Part shown: piece after piece, positions 11,540-45,976 of the stretch
How positions within the stretch are numbered: the first letter of the stretch is position 1
Layout of the letters: each line of letters opens with the position of its first letter
Assembly: GCA_005881275.1 (NCBI GenBank)
Contig: VBEF01000022.1
Span: 1 to 64,000, forward strand
DNA length: 64,000 bases
Source of the DNA: Chloroflexota bacterium
GTDB taxonomy: Bacteria > Chloroflexota > Dormibacteria > Dormibacterales > Dormibacteraceae
Direction: 5' to 3'
The notes under the pieces: generated by a model
What the model was told of the DNA's origin: nothing
The model's input: only the letters and a program-made list of their open reading frames with translations
Databases searched by the model: none
Position numbers and translations under genes: made by a program

Positions 11540-11552
11540 CCGGTAAGATCGA

Positions 11553-11640
11553 CTCCGGGCGGGAGCTCGCTCGACCGAGCGGGCTGAGAGGGCGCCGGTG
11601 CGCCGACCGCATGAACCTGAACTGGGTAATGCCAGCGGAG
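11553..11640 (+). promoter_or_regulatory. TPP riboswitch (THI element)
   Basis: The diagnostic blocks are present in order: CTGAGAGGG at 11584-11592, then CCGCATGAACCTGAACTGGGTAATGCC across 11607-11632 (TGAACCTGA and GGTAATGCC are the near-invariant THI-box pieces), and CGGAGGGAG at the end. P1 forms between CTCCG (11553-11557) and CGGAG (11636-11640). The 3' side of P1 merges with the GGAGGGAG ribosome-binding site just upstream of ATG 11649, so thiamine pyrophosphate binding should hide the site and block translation. No separate terminator is seen, which favours translational control. Confidence 0.95.
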
Positions 11641-11648
11641 GGAGAGCG

Positions 11649-13025
11649 ATGAGTGATTTCGCCGCTCGACAGGCCGAGGGCGATGTCTTCGGCAAGGTTG
11701 AGACGCACGGCATCGACGCGATCCCATCCGGCGATCGTCATGGCAGGCCGCGCGAGCTGGCGTTTCTTTGGGGCGGCGCGTTCGTCAACTACGCCAGCCT
11801 TTTCACCGCCAGCCTCCTCACCACGTACTACGGCCTTGGCGTCTGGGACGGCCTCGCCGCCACGGCCATCGGGACCGTGGCGGCGGCCGTCATCCTCGGG
11901 CTGCTCAGCAACACCGGTCCACAATCTGGTCTGCCGCAGATCGTTTTCACGCGCCGGATCTTTGGTCTCCGCGGCTCCTACCTCGGAGCGGGGCTCACGC
12001 TGTTCCTCGCCGTCGGCTGGTTCGCGGTCGACTGCGTCATCGCGGCCCAGGCCGCGGCGCAGCTGTTCGGAGGGGTCAATCGCTGGCTGACGTTCGGCCT
12101 CGTTCTCGTCGTCGCTGCGATCAGCGTGGTGGTCGCCGTCTATGGGCACCAGACGATCAAAGTCCTGGAGACCTTCGGAGCCGTGACGTTCGCGGTCCTG
12201 TCGGCCGCGCTCTTTATTCTTCTCGCGCCGAGCTTCCGCTGGACCACCGGGCCGGCTGTTGGCGGATCCGACTACGCCGGCGCTTTCGTGCTCGGGCTCA
12301 TGACGTGCTTCGCGCTCGTCGCGTCCTGGTATCCATTCGCGAGCGACTACTCGAGATACCTTCCGCGGTCGAGCTCGACCCGGGCGGTGACCTTCTGGCC
12401 GGTGGTGGGTGTCGTGGTTCCGATGATCCTTCTTGGGCTCTTCGGGCTCTTGCTGCCGACAATCGATGCGGGGCTGGCGTCGAGCCAGGGCATCCTGGCC
12501 GTCATCAACGCGCACGCGCCCTGGTGGGTTGCGATTCCGTTCTTCATCTTCATCGTCGTCGGTGAGATCTGGGCCAACTACCTCGACGTCTACACGGCGG
12601 GACTCGTCACGCTCGCGATGGGGATCAACCTCAAGCGCTGGCAGACCGCGCTGGGTTGCGGGATCCTCGGCGCCACGCTCGCCTCGTTGGCGGTGCTTAT
12701 CAGCGACTTCCACGTCGCGTATGAAGACTTCTTGATCCTCACCTACCTGTGGGCCCCCGCGTGGGCAGCCGTCGTCTTGCTGAGCTTCTTCGTGTTCGAG
12801 GGCAAGGGCCGGCCCAGCGTCGCGCTCGGAGCCTGGATCGCGGGCACCGCGGCGAGTCTTCTCTTCGTGAACTACGCGAATCTTTTCGGCAACCTCGTGG
12901 CCAAGCCCAGCTTCTTCAATGACGGCTTGATCGCGGGCCTGCATGGCGCTGACCTTGCCGGCCTCATCAGCGCCGGCGTGGCTGCTTTCGTCTACTGGTT
13001 CGGCAGGCGCCTGGTCACGACGTGA
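11649..13025 (+). CDS. NCS1-family permease, probable hydroxymethylpyrimidine transporter (CytX-like)
   Basis: 458 residues with about twelve transmembrane helices. Family traits of the purine/cytosine NCS1 permeases are visible: [16 protein letters not shown], the conserved helix around [16 protein letters not shown] and [19 protein letters not shown]. Its immediate control by a TPP riboswitch and its overlap with thiD identify hydroxymethylpyrimidine or a related thiamine precursor as the likely substrate, the role assigned to CytX. The ATG is placed 8 bases after the riboswitch; the open frame from 11598 would run through the aptamer. Confidence 0.88.
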
Positions 13026-39583: not shown

Positions 39584-42232
39584 CTACTCGGTCCCTGGTT
39601 CTGGCCGCCTCGTCTCGAGGTTGTAGAAGCGGGTGTGGTCGCGGCGGAACTTGAGCTCGATCATTCCGGTGGGTCCGTTTCTGTGCTTGGCCACGATCAC
39701 TTCGGCGATGCCTGGCTTCTCGTCGGATTTGTAGTACTCGGGTCGGAACAAGAACATGACCACGTCCGCGTCCTGCTCAATCGAGTTGTGGAGTATCACA
39801 TTTCCTGCTACGAAATTATGTAGATCTTCCACCGTTAGGTCATACACATCTTCGACTCCGTCGGGCTCAATTGACTTGACCTGGTCCCAATAAACGTCGC
39901 TAGCAGCAAGCAATTCCAGCTCGTCCGAGTGGACTACCTCGGCCAGCTTGCGAGCTCGTTCCCGGCTCAGGTTTTGCTTGTAGATGCCGGTACCCGCGTA
40001 TGACGTTTCAAGACCTGCGTACATCGCTCGCGTTGTCACTCGCGCGGCCACCATCGCTGGAATCGCGTGCATCTGCCACACGACAGCCGGGATCACGTCC
40101 CGGTTCGTGTTCTCACGCTTGGCACCGAGGTATTCAAGGATTGCCGCCTTGTGCAATGTCTTGTTCTCGCCTAGAGCACCAACGAGCTCGAGGAACACGT
40201 GGATGTCGTGCTGGCCGCTGACGGTGACGTGATGTTGGTCGCGCCCTTTTGTTCCTTGTGAGTGGGTCGAGATCCTGGCGTTGATACCAATACGTAGGAG
40301 CAGACTCTGCACGTCTCGAGCAAGCTGCCGACTGCTGCTCGCGTAGTACACGTTTGCGTAGTGAGCAACGCCGTGGGATAAGTGCACCGATCCATCGGTT
40401 GCCCACAGATGCCGGAGAAAACAGGCGATGCCCAACGCCGATTGCTTGAAGACTTTCTCGGGTATCCGTTTTTCGTAGGAGCGCAATCCGAAGACTTCAA
40501 GCTCTTCCAGCCAAACCCGAATCGGATTGCGCACGCCGTGCGTCAGATGGCGGGTCGGGGGCAGATAAACCTGGATCCATGTTCTTTCGGGGTGAATCCG
40601 CGGCCGAATTGCATCACCGAATACATCTTTCGCCAGCCTCACGACCTCCTCTGCCAGCGTCGGATCCTTCGTCGTGTATTGAATTGCATGGGTGGGGAGC
40701 GTGCAGCCGTCGCCTATCAGGTGGCCTAACAGTCCAAGCTCTTCCCGACTCATCGTGTCGCGGTCCGGGCCCTGAAGAATCCGCGGCAACGCGATGTGAT
40801 CGTTGGGCTCCAACTCATCAAGACGGCGCCATCCGGCGGTTGTTAGGAACTTGTGATTCGCAGTCGCTCGCACCGAGCGTCCCAGCTTTGTCGTCAGCTT
40901 GAAGACCGGCTTCGTGCCTGTCGCGAAAACTTTGCTGACCTTCCTCGAGTCCATTCGCCACCAGCCTTTGTCCAGGGCGAGAACGTTGAATCCCGACTTG
41001 CCGACCAGCTCCTTGATCGGCACGTAGGTGCCTGAGTCGGGCAAATAGACCGGCGTGTCCCCGGTGACGCAACCCGACTCGCGCAGGTCGCTCAAGATCG
41101 GCCGCTTGTCTGGACGCTGTTCGGGTGCGCGGCTCAACTGAGAAATTGCAATCACAGGTATTCGAAGCTCTCGAGCGAGGCCTTTCAAAGCGCGAGAGAT
41201 TGCCGAGACTTCTTGGACTCGGTTGTCATCGCCGCGCGCGCGCCCATGCATCAGCTGGAGATAGTCGACCACGATCATGTCGATGTTGTGCCGCATCTTG
41301 GCCTGACGAGCCTTCAGCTGCAGACTGAGCTCGTCCATGACCGGAGTGTCGTCAATGAAAATCATGGCTTCGCCCAATGGACCTAGCGCGTTGGACACGC
41401 GATCAAATTCAGCCTCCGTTAGAAGACCACGGTGCATGCGCTGAGCGTCGATCTGCGCTTGTTCTGTCAGCAGGCGTTCGGTCAATTGCTCTTTTGACAT
41501 TTCAAGACTGAAAATCGCGATTGCTTTCTTGGCTTCTAGAGCGGCATGCAGTCCAACGTTCAAAGCCATCGACGTTTTCCCCATCGAGGGACGTCCCGCG
41601 ATGATGATCAGGTCCGAATCTTTGAATCCGCTCGTCATGCGATCCAGGTCGTGAAATCCTGATGGGATTCCAACCACGCCCTGCCCGCTCTCCATCTGGA
41701 GCGATATCCGCTCCATCGCCGGCCCGAGCAGGTCGTACAGGCGCGCCAGCTCCCGCTGGTCGCGGTCGTCCGCCACGCCGAACACCAGTGACTGCGCCTG
41801 GTTGATCGCGTCCTCGGCCTCGATCGAGTCGTCGTAGCCGTAACCGGCGATGTTCCCGCCCGCCGAGATCAGCCGCCGCTTGTACGCCTTCTCCTTGACG
41901 ATCCGGCCGTAGTACTCGATGTTGGCCGCGGTCGGAACCGCGCTCTGCATCGAGGCCAGCTGGGCCCGGCCGCCGACACGATCGAGCAATCCCATCTGCT
42001 GGAGCTGCGCCGCCAACGTGACGTTGTCGATCGGCTCGCCGGCCGCGAACAGGTCCAGCGCCGCGCGATAGATCTGGCCGTTGTTCTCGCGATAGAAGTC
42101 TTCGGGGTGGAGGAACTGCAGCACCTTGGCGATCGAAAGCGGGTCGAGAATGATCGACCCGATGATGGACATCTCCGCGTCAAGGTCGTGCGGTGGTACT
42201 CGCCCTGTGGCGAGTGGAAGCGTGGTCGCCAT
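39584..42232 (-). CDS. dnaB: Replicative DNA helicase DnaB with intein
   Basis: 882 residues as translated; 453 after removal of the intein. The N-terminal primase-interacting domain (from PPHDLDAEMSIIGSIILDP) is followed by the RecA-like motor with Walker A GRPSMGKTS (about residue 213), Walker B MIVVDYLQLMHG and SQLSRAPEQRPDKRPILSDLRESG. The extein then resumes with SIEQDADVVMFLFRPEYY. It is the hexameric helicase at the replication fork. Start ATG 42232 is 10 bases from the rplI stop; rplI-dnaB order is common in bacteria. Confidence 0.96.
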   Translation of the reverse strand: MATTLPLATGRVPPHDLDAEMSIIGSIILDPLSIAKVLQFLHPEDFYRENNGQIYRAALDLFAAGEPIDNVTLAAQLQQMGLLDRVGGRAQLASMQSAVPTAANIEYYGRIVKEKAYKRRLISAGGNIAGYGYDDSIEAEDAINQAQSLVFGVADDRDQRELARLYDLLGPAMERISLQMESGQGVVGIPSGFHDLDRMTSGFKDSDLIIIAGRPSMGKTSMALNVGLHAALEAKKAIAIFSLEMSKEQLTERLLTEQAQIDAQRMHRGLLTEAEFDRVSNALGPLGEAMIFIDDTPVMDELSLQLKARQAKMRHNIDMIVVDYLQLMHGRARGDDNRVQEVSAISRALKGLARELRIPVIAISQLSRAPEQRPDKRPILSDLRESGCVTGDTPVYLPDSGTYVPIKELVGKSGFNVLALDKGWWRMDSRKVSKVFATGTKPVFKLTTKLGRSVRATANHKFLTTAGWRRLDELEPNDHIALPRILQGPDRDTMSREELGLLGHLIGDGCTLPTHAIQYTTKDPTLAEEVVRLAKDVFGDAIRPRIHPERTWIQVYLPPTRHLTHGVRNPIRVWLEELEVFGLRSYEKRIPEKVFKQSALGIACFLRHLWATDGSVHLSHGVAHYANVYYASSSRQLARDVQSLLLRIGINARISTHSQGTKGRDQHHVTVSGQHDIHVFLELVGALGENKTLHKAAILEYLGAKRENTNRDVIPAVVWQMHAIPAMVAARVTTRAMYAGLETSYAGTGIYKQNLSRERARKLAEVVHSDELELLAASDVYWDQVKSIEPDGVEDVYDLTVEDLHNFVAGNVILHNSIEQDADVVMFLFRPEYYKSDEKPGIAEVIVAKHRNGPTGMIELKFRRDHTRFYNLETRRPEPGTE
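39785..41071 (-). other. DnaB intein with LAGLIDADG homing endonuclease
   Basis: 429 residues in frame inside DnaB (positions 388-816). Block A begins with Cys1 (CVTGDTPVYL), block B is RATANHKFLTTAGW, block F is VYDLTVEDLHNFVAGN and block G ends in ILHN with the penultimate His and final Asn; the next extein residue is Ser. Two dodecapeptide motifs, LLGHLIGDGCT and CFLRHLWATDGSV, mark a homing endonuclease. The insertion point between ESG and SIEQDAD is the one used by the cyanobacterial Ssp and the Rhodothermus DnaB inteins. The intein DNA is visibly less GC-rich than the flanking dnaB sequence, consistent with transfer. All splicing residues look intact. Confidence 0.95.
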
Positions 42233-43174: not shown

Positions 43175-44455
43175 GTGATCACGGCGGTTCCAGCGGCGAC
43201 GCCAGCCGTGTCGGAGCCGCACTTTGGCAACCTGCGCCATGCCGCGCTCAGCGCCTTCTGGTTCGGGAGCAACTTCCTCTGGATCCCGCTGACGACCGTC
43301 TTGCTCCAGTCCCAGATCGACGAAGTCGTCCCCCAGCGAGACCTCCAGAACACCGGCATCGGTGTTGCGCTCGGGGTTGGCGGCCTGCTGGCCATGACGG
43401 TGCCGCCCCTGGTCGGCGCGTGGTCCGACCGCATACACAGTCGCTTTGGACGGCGCCGGCCGATCATGGTCGCGGGCTCGCTCCTCACGATTCCCGGTCT
43501 CGTGGTCCTCATGTTCGCCGCGAACTTTCCAATGGTTCTGGTCGGTTACGCGATCATTCAGTTCTTCTTCAACGCCGCGGGCGCGGCGTACGCGGGCATC
43601 ATCCCCGACGTCGTCCCGGCCCAGCAGGTCGGCAAAGCAAGCGGCTTCCTGGCCACGATGACTCAGCTTGGAATCGGCGCCGGCCTGGGAGTCACCTCGC
43701 TCATCGGACGGAGCCCGGCCATCTACCTGATTCTCGGTGCGGTCGCGCTCTTGAGCCTCATTCCGACGGTCTGGGCCGCAAGAGGTGAGGGCCAGACGCC
43801 GATTCCAGCCCGTCCGCGCCGGCCGTTGGGCGAGGCGGTTCGGGAATTTCTCCGCCCCCTGCACGAGGGCGACTTCGCATGGGTGATTTTCACGCGCCTG
43901 ATGATTTCCTCCGGCATTACCGCCGTCCTCTACTTCCTCGTCAACTTCTTCCGAGACGTGGTGCTGCAAACGAAGACCGGCGCCGAGTCCTTCACGTCCA
44001 ACTGGCTTCTCGTCGTGGTCGTCACGGCCATCCCGTTCGGATTTTTTGGCGGCTTGGTGTCGGACCGCATCCGCCGGCGCAAGATCTTCGTCTACCTGGC
44101 CGGCGCCGCCCAGGCATTCGTCGCGATTGCGTTCATCGCTCTGTATCCGACCGCGATCCCGCTCGTGTTCGCGCTCGGAGTCGCATACGGAGTCGGCTAT
44201 GGCCTCTACTTCGCCGTCGACTGGGCGCTCGCCGTCGATACGCTCCCGGATCCCAAAGCTTCCGCGAAGGACATGGGCCTTTTCCACGTCGCCTTGACTT
44301 TGCCGCAGGCGATCATTCCCTTCTTCGGCGGCCCCCTCATCGATTTGCTGAACGGCCCGCACGGCAACGGGGGCTATCGGATCGTTTTCTCGAGCGCGGT
44401 TGTGTTCCTGTTCCTAGGGACTGTTCTCGTGAGCCGGATCAAGACCGTTCGCTGA
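43175..44455 (+). CDS. MFS transporter (GPH/sugar-cation symporter-like)
   Basis: 426 residues, GTG 43175, twelve predicted transmembrane helices. The loop 2-3 motif is GAWSDRIHSRFGRRRPIMVAG, typical of the GPH/SUC-like branch, and a second copy GGLVSDRIRRRKIF lies in the second half. Substrate could be a disaccharide or glycoside, but this is not certain. The 3' end overlaps the convergent GT87 gene by 42 bases. Confidence 0.85.
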   Translation: MITAVPAATPAVSEPHFGNLRHAALSAFWFGSNFLWIPLTTVLLQSQIDEVVPQRDLQNTGIGVALGVGGLLAMTVPPLVGAWSDRIHSRFGRRRPIMVAGSLLTIPGLVVLMFAANFPMVLVGYAIIQFFFNAAGAAYAGIIPDVVPAQQVGKASGFLATMTQLGIGAGLGVTSLIGRSPAIYLILGAVALLSLIPTVWAARGEGQTPIPARPRRPLGEAVREFLRPLHEGDFAWVIFTRLMISSGITAVLYFLVNFFRDVVLQTKTGAESFTSNWLLVVVVTAIPFGFFGGLVSDRIRRRKIFVYLAGAAQAFVAIAFIALYPTAIPLVFALGVAYGVGYGLYFAVDWALAVDTLPDPKASAKDMGLFHVALTLPQAIIPFFGGPLIDLLNGPHGNGGYRIVFSSAVVFLFLGTVLVSRIKTVR

Positions 44456-45685
44456 GCGCCGCACCGCGACCAGGCTCGCGACCCAGATCGCGGCGATGCC
44501 CACGACGCCGAATTCCGCCAGGACCCGGAGCACGACCAGATTGGAGTAGCCCGACACGAGAAGCGCCTGCATCAGCTTGTGGACCGGGCCGATCAGCAGC
44601 CAGGCGCACGACACCAGGGCGAGCACCGGCCAGTCGCGCCTCCGCATGGCCCACACGACGAGCACAAACATCGGCAGCAGGAGCAGCACGAGATGCGTAC
44701 CCCACGAATACGACGCGATGAGCGGCGTCGCGGCCACGATCGCGGCCGCCTCGAGCGACCGGCCCATAGGCGTCACGGCCGGCCGCCGAAGCACGCGAAA
44801 CGTGAACACGAGGACGGCGACGGCAATGAGCGCGGTCAGCACGCGCGCCGCGAAAGGACTGCCGCGCACCGAGATGAAAGTGTTCGGGTCGAAGAGGCGG
44901 GTGATGGTCCCGCCGGGAGAGTGATTCTCGAATAGGCCGGTCCCGGCGCTCACCGACGGGAGCACCTTGAACAGGTACTCCAACAGGTATTGCGGCGCTC
45001 CCACGAGCCACAGGACGAGTCCCGCCGCGGCCGCGGCGGCGAACATCCTCCATCGCCTTGCCCAAAAGACGAGCAGGGCGACCGGACCCTGAATGAGCTT
45101 GATCGCGATGGCCGCGCCGAGAGCCGCTCCGCCCCACCATCGGTCGTCGACCCAGGCCAACAACCAAACGCCCGACAGAGCCAGGAGGACGAGATTGACC
45201 TGGCCCTCGTCGACGTTCCCGACGACAGGCTCGAAGGCAAGCGCGATTAGGACCAGCAGCACCGCGAGCTGCCAATCGTCCACCTTCAGCGCTTTCAACG
45301 TGAGCCAGACGAACAGCCCCAAAGACGCGTTGAGAACCACGACCGCGCCGACGGTGATGAGGTGGGCGTCGACGCCGACCAGCGGCTGCAGCAACCACGC
45401 GAGCACCGGCGGCATCACGTACTGGGGGCCGGTCGGTTCGAGGCAGCCGATGGTCGCGCACAGGTCGTACGGGTCCTGGCCGTTGGCTATGCGCGTGGCG
45501 GCGCGCATGTAGCTCTCCTGGAAGTCGCCTAGATAGCCCCCGAGGAAGATCGGTTGAATCAGCGCCTGCCACAGATATGTCGCGACGATCGGGATGCCCG
45601 CGATCGCCAGCAGGACCGTACGGAAGCGGCGGTTGTCCAGCGCGGAGCGTCGGGTGCGGGGCGTCGAGGTGAGCTCGCCGATCAC
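44414..45685 (-). CDS. GT87-like polyprenol-phosphate mannosyltransferase family protein (DUF2029)
   Basis: 423 residues with about ten transmembrane helices. The first outer loop GDFQESYMRAATRIANGQDPYD carries the conserved acidic residue and the G-x-D-P-Y motif of DUF2029/GT87 enzymes, which add mannose from polyprenyl-phosphate-mannose to envelope glycolipids. The acceptor is unknown. A structured RNA and an intrinsic terminator lie on the same strand 85-225 bases upstream and may control it (see findings). Confidence 0.78.
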   Translation of the reverse strand: MIGELTSTPRTRRSALDNRRFRTVLLAIAGIPIVATYLWQALIQPIFLGGYLGDFQESYMRAATRIANGQDPYDLCATIGCLEPTGPQYVMPPVLAWLLQPLVGVDAHLITVGAVVVLNASLGLFVWLTLKALKVDDWQLAVLLVLIALAFEPVVGNVDEGQVNLVLLALSGVWLLAWVDDRWWGGAALGAAIAIKLIQGPVALLVFWARRWRMFAAAAAAGLVLWLVGAPQYLLEYLFKVLPSVSAGTGLFENHSPGGTITRLFDPNTFISVRGSPFAARVLTALIAVAVLVFTFRVLRRPAVTPMGRSLEAAAIVAATPLIASYSWGTHLVLLLLPMFVLVVWAMRRRDWPVLALVSCAWLLIGPVHKLMQALLVSGYSNLVVLRVLAEFGVVGIAAIWVASLVAVRRSANGLDPAHENSP

Positions 45686-45712
45686 GAGCGCGAATTATGG
45701 GATTGCGGTGAG

Positions 45713-45766
45713 CCCCTCCGGCGGCTTCGGCGCCACCTCCCCGTAAAAATTGGGAGGAGTTGGGAG
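45713..45766. repeat. Dispersed 54-base repeat, copy A
   Basis: Runs from CCCCTCCGGCGGCTTCG to GGAGGAGTTGGGAG and contains CCTCCC/GGGAGG arms around a TAAAAAT-type loop. Copy B at 58525-58578 matches it over nearly its whole length. Lies between the GT87 start and the terminator at 45770. Confidence 0.6.
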
Positions 45767-45769
45767 TTC

Positions 45770-45807
45770 AAAAAAACGAGGCGGCGCCTGCAGCGGACAC
45801 CGCCTCG
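45770..45807 (-). terminator. Intrinsic terminator on the minus strand
   Basis: CGAGGCGG (45777-45784 on the plus strand) pairs with CCGCCTCG (45800-45807), an 8-bp GC stem; read on the minus strand it is followed by seven T residues (45776-45770). This is the best intrinsic terminator in the window. It ends the structured region 45809-45910 and precedes the GT87 gene by 84 bases. Confidence 0.85.
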
Positions 45808-45808
45808 A

Positions 45809-45910
45809 CCGGGATGCCACCGGGTGACACGCGCTTGGTTTTCTGCGCCGCTTTACGGCCGTTGCCTACTTGTGGAGGCCAACCTTTGCGTGAACTGTCG
45901 GTGGACCCGG
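45809..45910 (-). ncRNA. Structured RNA of unknown class (small RNA or riboswitch-like leader)
   Basis: Long-range pairing closes the region: CCGGG (45809-45813) with CCCGG (45906-45910), and CCACCG (45817-45822) with CGGTGG (45899-45904), then CACGC (45828-45832) with GCGTG (45888-45892) and TTGG (45835-45838) with CCAA (45879-45882). Inside are two hairpins, GCCG-CTTTA-CGGC (45847-45859) and GCCT-(8)-AGGC (45864-45879). The minus strand is favoured because the terminator follows directly, and a TTGACA -35 lies at 45958-45953 on that strand; its -10 is weak. No known riboswitch consensus was recognised. No protein-coding signal is seen in 45686-45976. Confidence 0.5.
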
Positions 45911-45976
45911 ACGGAAACTAATTGACTCCACAGTGCGACGATCCGGAGACAATGTCAAGTGGGTTGGCCCGGGCGC

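Follow-up and report, generated by a model that had tools for sequence, protein, structure and literature searches.

A candidate stand-alone small RNA with a conserved fold in one family of Chloroflexota

The minus strand of positions 45924-45770 in the window (the whole stretch of DNA analysed here, 64,000 nucleotides long and belonging to the 2.9-Mb draft genome G000) probably carries an independent small-RNA gene of about 150 nt bounded by promoter-like and terminator sequences of its own, a reading to which we assign, from sequence comparison, a probability of roughly 0.88. The RNA would represent a new, lineage-specific family of a known kind, namely stand-alone small RNAs; to our knowledge, very little is known about the small RNAs of soil Chloroflexota. 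Retention of the RNA as a single copy at one fixed position in 12 of 14 genera, together with compensatory changes all along the stem and an invariant core, indicates strong selection on it. An earlier, sequence-only reading of this DNA had proposed a new riboswitch or small RNA; the latter part of that proposal stands on covariation, on the boundaries of the element and on the lack of any Rfam match, whereas the former founders on 15 loci that retain the RNA without the glycosyltransferase gene it was thought to control.

Fold and boundaries of the RNA

On the minus strand, the region 45924-45770 folds into a long stem with interruptions that encloses two inner hairpins, and a strong terminator hairpin follows immediately. 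The gene is supported by covariance model matches, the absence of an Rfam match and the stable fold, with the 3' end placed at the T run and the putative 5' end about 7 nt past the -10 box, near 45923. The folding energy of 45930-45760 is -71.5 kcal/mol versus a mean of -57.2 +/- 3.8 kcal/mol for 200 dinucleotide shuffles (z = -3.74), none of which is as stable as the native fold. The four nested stems and two inner hairpins that the sequence-only reading had drawn between 45809 and 45910 are all present at those positions. The long stem consists of P1a (CCGGG/CCCGG, 45910-45906 pairing with 45813-45809), P1b (CCACCG/CGGTGG, 45904-45899 with 45822-45817) and P1c (CACGC/GCGTG, 45892-45888 with 45832-45828), whereas P2 (GGTT/AACC, 45884-45881 with 45840-45837) is predicted to close the inner junction in nearly all sequences folded singly. 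The inner hairpins are P3 (GCCUC-CACAA-G(U)AGGC, 45879-45864) and P4 (GCCG-UAAAG-CGGC, 45859-45847). The terminal hairpin, CGAGGCGGTGTC...GCGCCGCCTCG at 45807-45777, is found in all 25 aligned members; a terminator scan gives it 12 pairs followed by seven T at 45776-45770, in agreement with the intrinsic terminator previously noted at 45770-45807. Since terminator-like hairpins are common in this GC-rich DNA (three found versus 2.1 expected), this hairpin proves little by itself.

The pairing was evaluated in two alignments. Alignment A1 was built from 20 diverse sequences with no structural guidance; in it, 94.6% of cells are paired and eight pairs show double changes, amounting to 21 double-change cells against 7.0 +/- 2.1 in shuffles, with none of 500 shuffles reaching this number. 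In alignment A3, which contains 25 sequences fitted to the structure model and so leans towards it, 96.3% of cells are paired and 13 of the 37 pairs show double changes, which makes 40 double-change cells, a number that none of 500 shuffles (11.9 +/- 2.8) attained; when the partners are shifted by one to three columns, pairing falls to 32-44%. The sequence-only reading had held that a lack of compensating changes in relatives would tell against it, and the changes at these 13 pairs are what the comparison returned. P1a and P1b show double changes at every pair in A3 (five of five and six of six, respectively, with 87% of cells paired in P1a), as when CCACCG/CGGTGG of P1b in the window is matched by TGTCCT/AGGACA in G021. 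In P1c, 98% of cells are paired and one pair shows A-U/G-C/G-U exchange, and P4 has exchanged G-C for C-G in six sequences, its stem being retained in relatives while its UAAAG loop is replaced by GCAA, UGAG, ACCA or an 11-nt loop. We consider P1a, P1b, P1c, P4 and the terminal hairpin to be well supported. No variation is seen in P3 or in most of the terminal hairpin; because the sequence of P3 is invariant, with all five pairs constant in 25 distinct sequences, covariation cannot test its pairing, and this invariance marks constraint at the level of sequence. (Strand exchange between P3 and the terminator, both of which contain GCCUC/GAGGC, is unsupported by folding, and the invariance provides no test of it.) G002 carries an additional copy of the RNA in tandem (L022:1714-1858), which has no promoter and in which the 5' strand of P1 has given way to letters able to form their own hairpin.

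The TTGACA reported upstream of the folded region is indeed present at 45958-45953 (minus strand) and constitutes a putative -35 box, separated by 17 nt from a weak candidate -10 box, CACTGT (45935-45930, consensus CAnnnT). The hexamer reads TTGACA in all 33 relatives in which such a promoter could be located; these 33 members keep the pattern TTGACA-17/18-CAnnnT even though their promoter lies anywhere from 71 to 81 nt from the core. A TTGAC box is absent from the five members that have diverged most. Among members of the genus, the mean identity of sequence pairs rises from 43% over the 60 nt preceding the -35 box to 100% at the -35 hexamer, is 83% across the spacer and 75% at the -10 hexamer, stays at 85-93% along the RNA, reaches 99.6% at the terminal hairpin and drops to 25% over the 60 nt that follow. 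The conserved block begins at the -35 box and ends past the terminator, not beyond, and among family members the tail after the terminal hairpin is T-rich but variable. The element thus seems to possess its own promoter and terminator, as a stand-alone small RNA should.

Distribution and gene neighbourhood

The relatives compared here are metagenome-assembled draft genomes, and those of G000 that are named are mostly soil assemblies of the 'Chloroflexi bacterium CF_..' series. The 196-bp element is single-copy in G000; similar DNA is found at 89-95% identity in 16 of the 17 genomes of its genus and, down to 70%, in most genera of the family. A covariance model detects the RNA in 36 of 42 family genomes, covering 12 of 14 genera, and nothing above chance in 68 other genomes of the class. 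All 20 matches of a phylum-wide search of 400 genomes fall within the family; the model-based E-values are rough. Weak matches outside the family (e.g., in G055, G060 and G075) do not exceed about 26 bits and were treated as chance: the three inspected (L035, L103 and L102, from these genomes in that order) are GC-rich hairpin stretches without the RNA core, and the others were judged by score alone. As to the family genomes in which the RNA was not found, contig ends fall at the locus in the incomplete G009 and G031; the locus is assembled and the RNA absent in G020 and G032 (genus g5); and no above-chance match occurs anywhere in G027 and G036 (genus g12), where the locus is only partly assembled. 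The RNA being missing from g5 and g12, it is not universally needed. Phage and plasmid collections contain no similar DNA, and on this ground we rejected an origin from such elements.

The RNA lies in a conserved gene order, polyA polymerase - bactofilin - glpX FBPase - protein without Pfam match - acyl-CoA synthetase(-)/RNA(+)/[GT87(+)]/MFS transporter(-)/L9/DnaB, in which the acyl-CoA synthetase is divergent from the RNA, the MFS transporter convergent and GT87 optional. The presence of genes was scored by similarity to the window proteins, among which we presume bactofilin, polyA polymerase, L9 and DnaB from reading their sequences rather than from profile scans. (The presumed DnaB replicative helicase gene, at 39584-42232 on the minus strand and encoding 882 aa, has an apparent in-frame intein, DLRESG-C...(about 420 aa)...VILHN-SIEQDADV, which opens with C and closes with HN, as is usual.) The GT87 glycosyltransferase gene of the window (44414-45685, minus strand; Pfam GT87, E = 1.4e-18) lies outside the RNA, its GTG start codon at 45685 being 85 bases past the T run, exactly as first noted. 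REP-like palindromic units occur between the RNA and GT87, one of them diverged at 45700-45765 of the window and others, of sequence CTCCTCCCCATTTATGGGGAGGTGGCGCCGAAGGCGCCGGAGGGG, tandemly repeated in L039 (L039:1-160); units like these are found after the RNA in L011, L012 and L017.

The order RNA-terminator-GT87 on one strand, which is observed both in the window and across 18 genomes, and a junction that resembles an aptamer and contains invariant letters would suit an attenuating leader or riboswitch of GT87, in which ligand sensing by the folded part would determine the formation of the terminator. However, among the 33 resolvable loci (one per genome, contig ends leaving three further loci unresolvable), GT87 follows the RNA in 18 and is absent in 15, so the RNA has no fixed position upstream of a same-strand gene to regulate. 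In 11 of these 15 loci the next gene is the MFS transporter on the opposite strand, facing the terminator, and hence there is no sense-strand gene to control there. Moreover, GT87 is missing from every resolvable member of the genera that have diverged most (g6, g8, g10, g13 and g14), and GT87 homologues at other loci (L042, L043, L045, L047 and L049) have no RNA. Predicted folds also contain the RNA body and the terminator side by side, without mutually exclusive pairing: when the 3' arm of the terminator is omitted, its 5' arm finds no conserved partner, which indicates that there is no conserved antiterminator. The architecture of a transcription-attenuating leader, as the sequence-only reading had it, is thus not upheld, and the GT87 leader appears largely refuted by these comparisons and very improbable as an explanation of the RNA. 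The window, G001 and G019 also lack the upstream acyl-CoA synthetase and still have the RNA, which seems to outlast both genes and to be kept in place as neighbours on either side change. Read-through or a secondary cis effect may nevertheless occur in the 18 genomes with GT87 downstream on the same strand. A folded leader and a terminator beside one gene are no evidence for a riboswitch until neighbourhoods have been compared across relatives, and it is this comparison that corrects what is a natural misreading.

Other readings and possible function

None of the 4227 Rfam families matches the RNA at gathering score, and only chance-level matches appear at E <= 10; the earlier statement that no common riboswitch consensus fits is thereby extended to all of Rfam, and the covariance analysis proposed with it shows a structure conserved among relatives. 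We found no published account of an RNA from this lineage in our literature search. (Elsewhere in the window, a TPP riboswitch at 11549-11661 on the plus strand scores 60.2 bits, above the Rfam gathering score.) No tRNA or tmRNA is found at this RNA, and SRP RNA was rejected because the genome already has one on a different contig (G000:C5, 70 bits).

Its stand-alone nature, its length of some 150 nt with promoter and terminator, and the fact that Rfam 6S is undetected in the genus of the window, even at E 5, would all be compatible with a strongly diverged 6S RNA, the polymerase-binding RNA. This identity is nevertheless very improbable, given that the RNA has a branched junction fold rather than a rod with a central bubble, that it has no RF00013 match at E <= 10, and that a separate 6S-like RNA exists elsewhere in five of the genomes bearing it (G021, G023, G028, G029 and G034). 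Such separate 6S candidates occur in seven family genomes, which include these five, and the three displayed show typical features, e.g., ACCCACCU/ACCCAC. The candidates L052, L053, L054 and L055 (from G032, G020, G028 and G021, respectively) have typical features, reach 33-46 bits versus the Rfam cut-off of 46.4 and are missed by the default Rfam threshold; perhaps divergence accounts for the non-detection of 6S in the genus of the window. A Y RNA associated with Ro/Rsr would likewise be a small branched RNA with a stem closing a junction, but it has next to no probability here, since the TROVE (Ro) domain is present in just three of 42 family genomes, with no relation to the occurrence of the RNA, and no Y RNA family of Rfam matches. 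It is highly improbable, too, that a conserved short coding sequence or a plain intergenic palindrome (repeat or terminator) has been mistaken for an RNA. The chance hairpins of this GC-rich genome, mentioned above, and the REP-like palindromes adjoining the RNA might invite that view; against it are the single copy in the genome, the same locus across genera and the compensatory changes. Furthermore, no reading frame is conserved across relatives, in which stops occur in most frames and single-base insertions and deletions break the frames across RNA members; these gaps and stops speak against a conserved small protein, and the element appears to be non-coding, with its structure under selection. 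(A 123-aa open frame with a TTG start runs antisense across the RNA, at 45554-45925 on the plus strand; it is probably spurious, the frames being variable in relatives.)

With the RNA taken as an independent small-RNA gene, RNA polymerase with the housekeeping sigma factor would start near 45923, transcribe about 150 nt and stop at the terminal hairpin. The product released would be a compact RNA, in which the long interrupted stem P1a-P1c closes a junction with P3 and P4, plus the 3' hairpin, and it would presumably act in trans. Within this small-RNA reading, we give roughly even odds to the likeliest mode of action, in which the folded RNA would bind a protein partner as a small ribonucleoprotein. 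This preference follows from where the most conserved letters lie: they are found in the paired P3, the terminal hairpin and the surroundings of the junction and do not form one open stretch. Such invariance is to be expected where a protein recognises the folded RNA, and not where pairing depends on an antisense seed. An Hfq-independent antisense regulator, acting via letters of the junction or loops, comes second, with a chance of about one in three, the rest of the probability within the small-RNA reading being left to other roles. An Hfq-dependent antisense RNA finds no support, as no Hfq gene is detectable in any of the 42 family genomes, the control genomes being positive. More tentatively, and with odds clearly below even, the RNA may constitute a constitutive, housekeeping-like class of this one family of Chloroflexota that would have its own biochemical role, whether in a ribonucleoprotein or as a global regulator independent of Hfq, in genera without detectable canonical 6S. 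The alignment, structure, boundaries and promoter are now defined well enough for searches of metatranscriptomes and tests for protein partners.

Comparison with known systems

The RNA resembles 6S RNA (RF00013) in size, in forming an apparently independent transcription unit and in its conserved position, and differs from it in being branched and without the sequence features of 6S. It shares with the bacterial small SRP RNA (RF00169) the character of a small, single-copy RNA of housekeeping type, whereas a separate SRP RNA gene is present in the same genome. As in transcription-terminating riboswitches, a structured domain directly precedes an intrinsic terminator; unlike them, the RNA described here has neither an obligatory downstream gene nor an antiterminator alternative. 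Its close counterparts further include structured small RNAs that stand alone and are narrowly distributed, such as the orphan intergenic motifs (Weinberg et al. 2010, PMC2864571). Many such motifs are included in Rfam 15, of which no member matches the new RNA, and no match was reported in the Rfam scan for Chloroflexi-1 (RF01698), the Rfam family that is the Chloroflexi entry among them (PMC2864571). The likeness to these motifs (PMC2864571) lies in a single-copy intergenic gene with a fold supported by covariation, in a limited taxonomic range, and in an unassigned function and the lack of any protein-coding gene that constantly accompanies the RNA on its strand.
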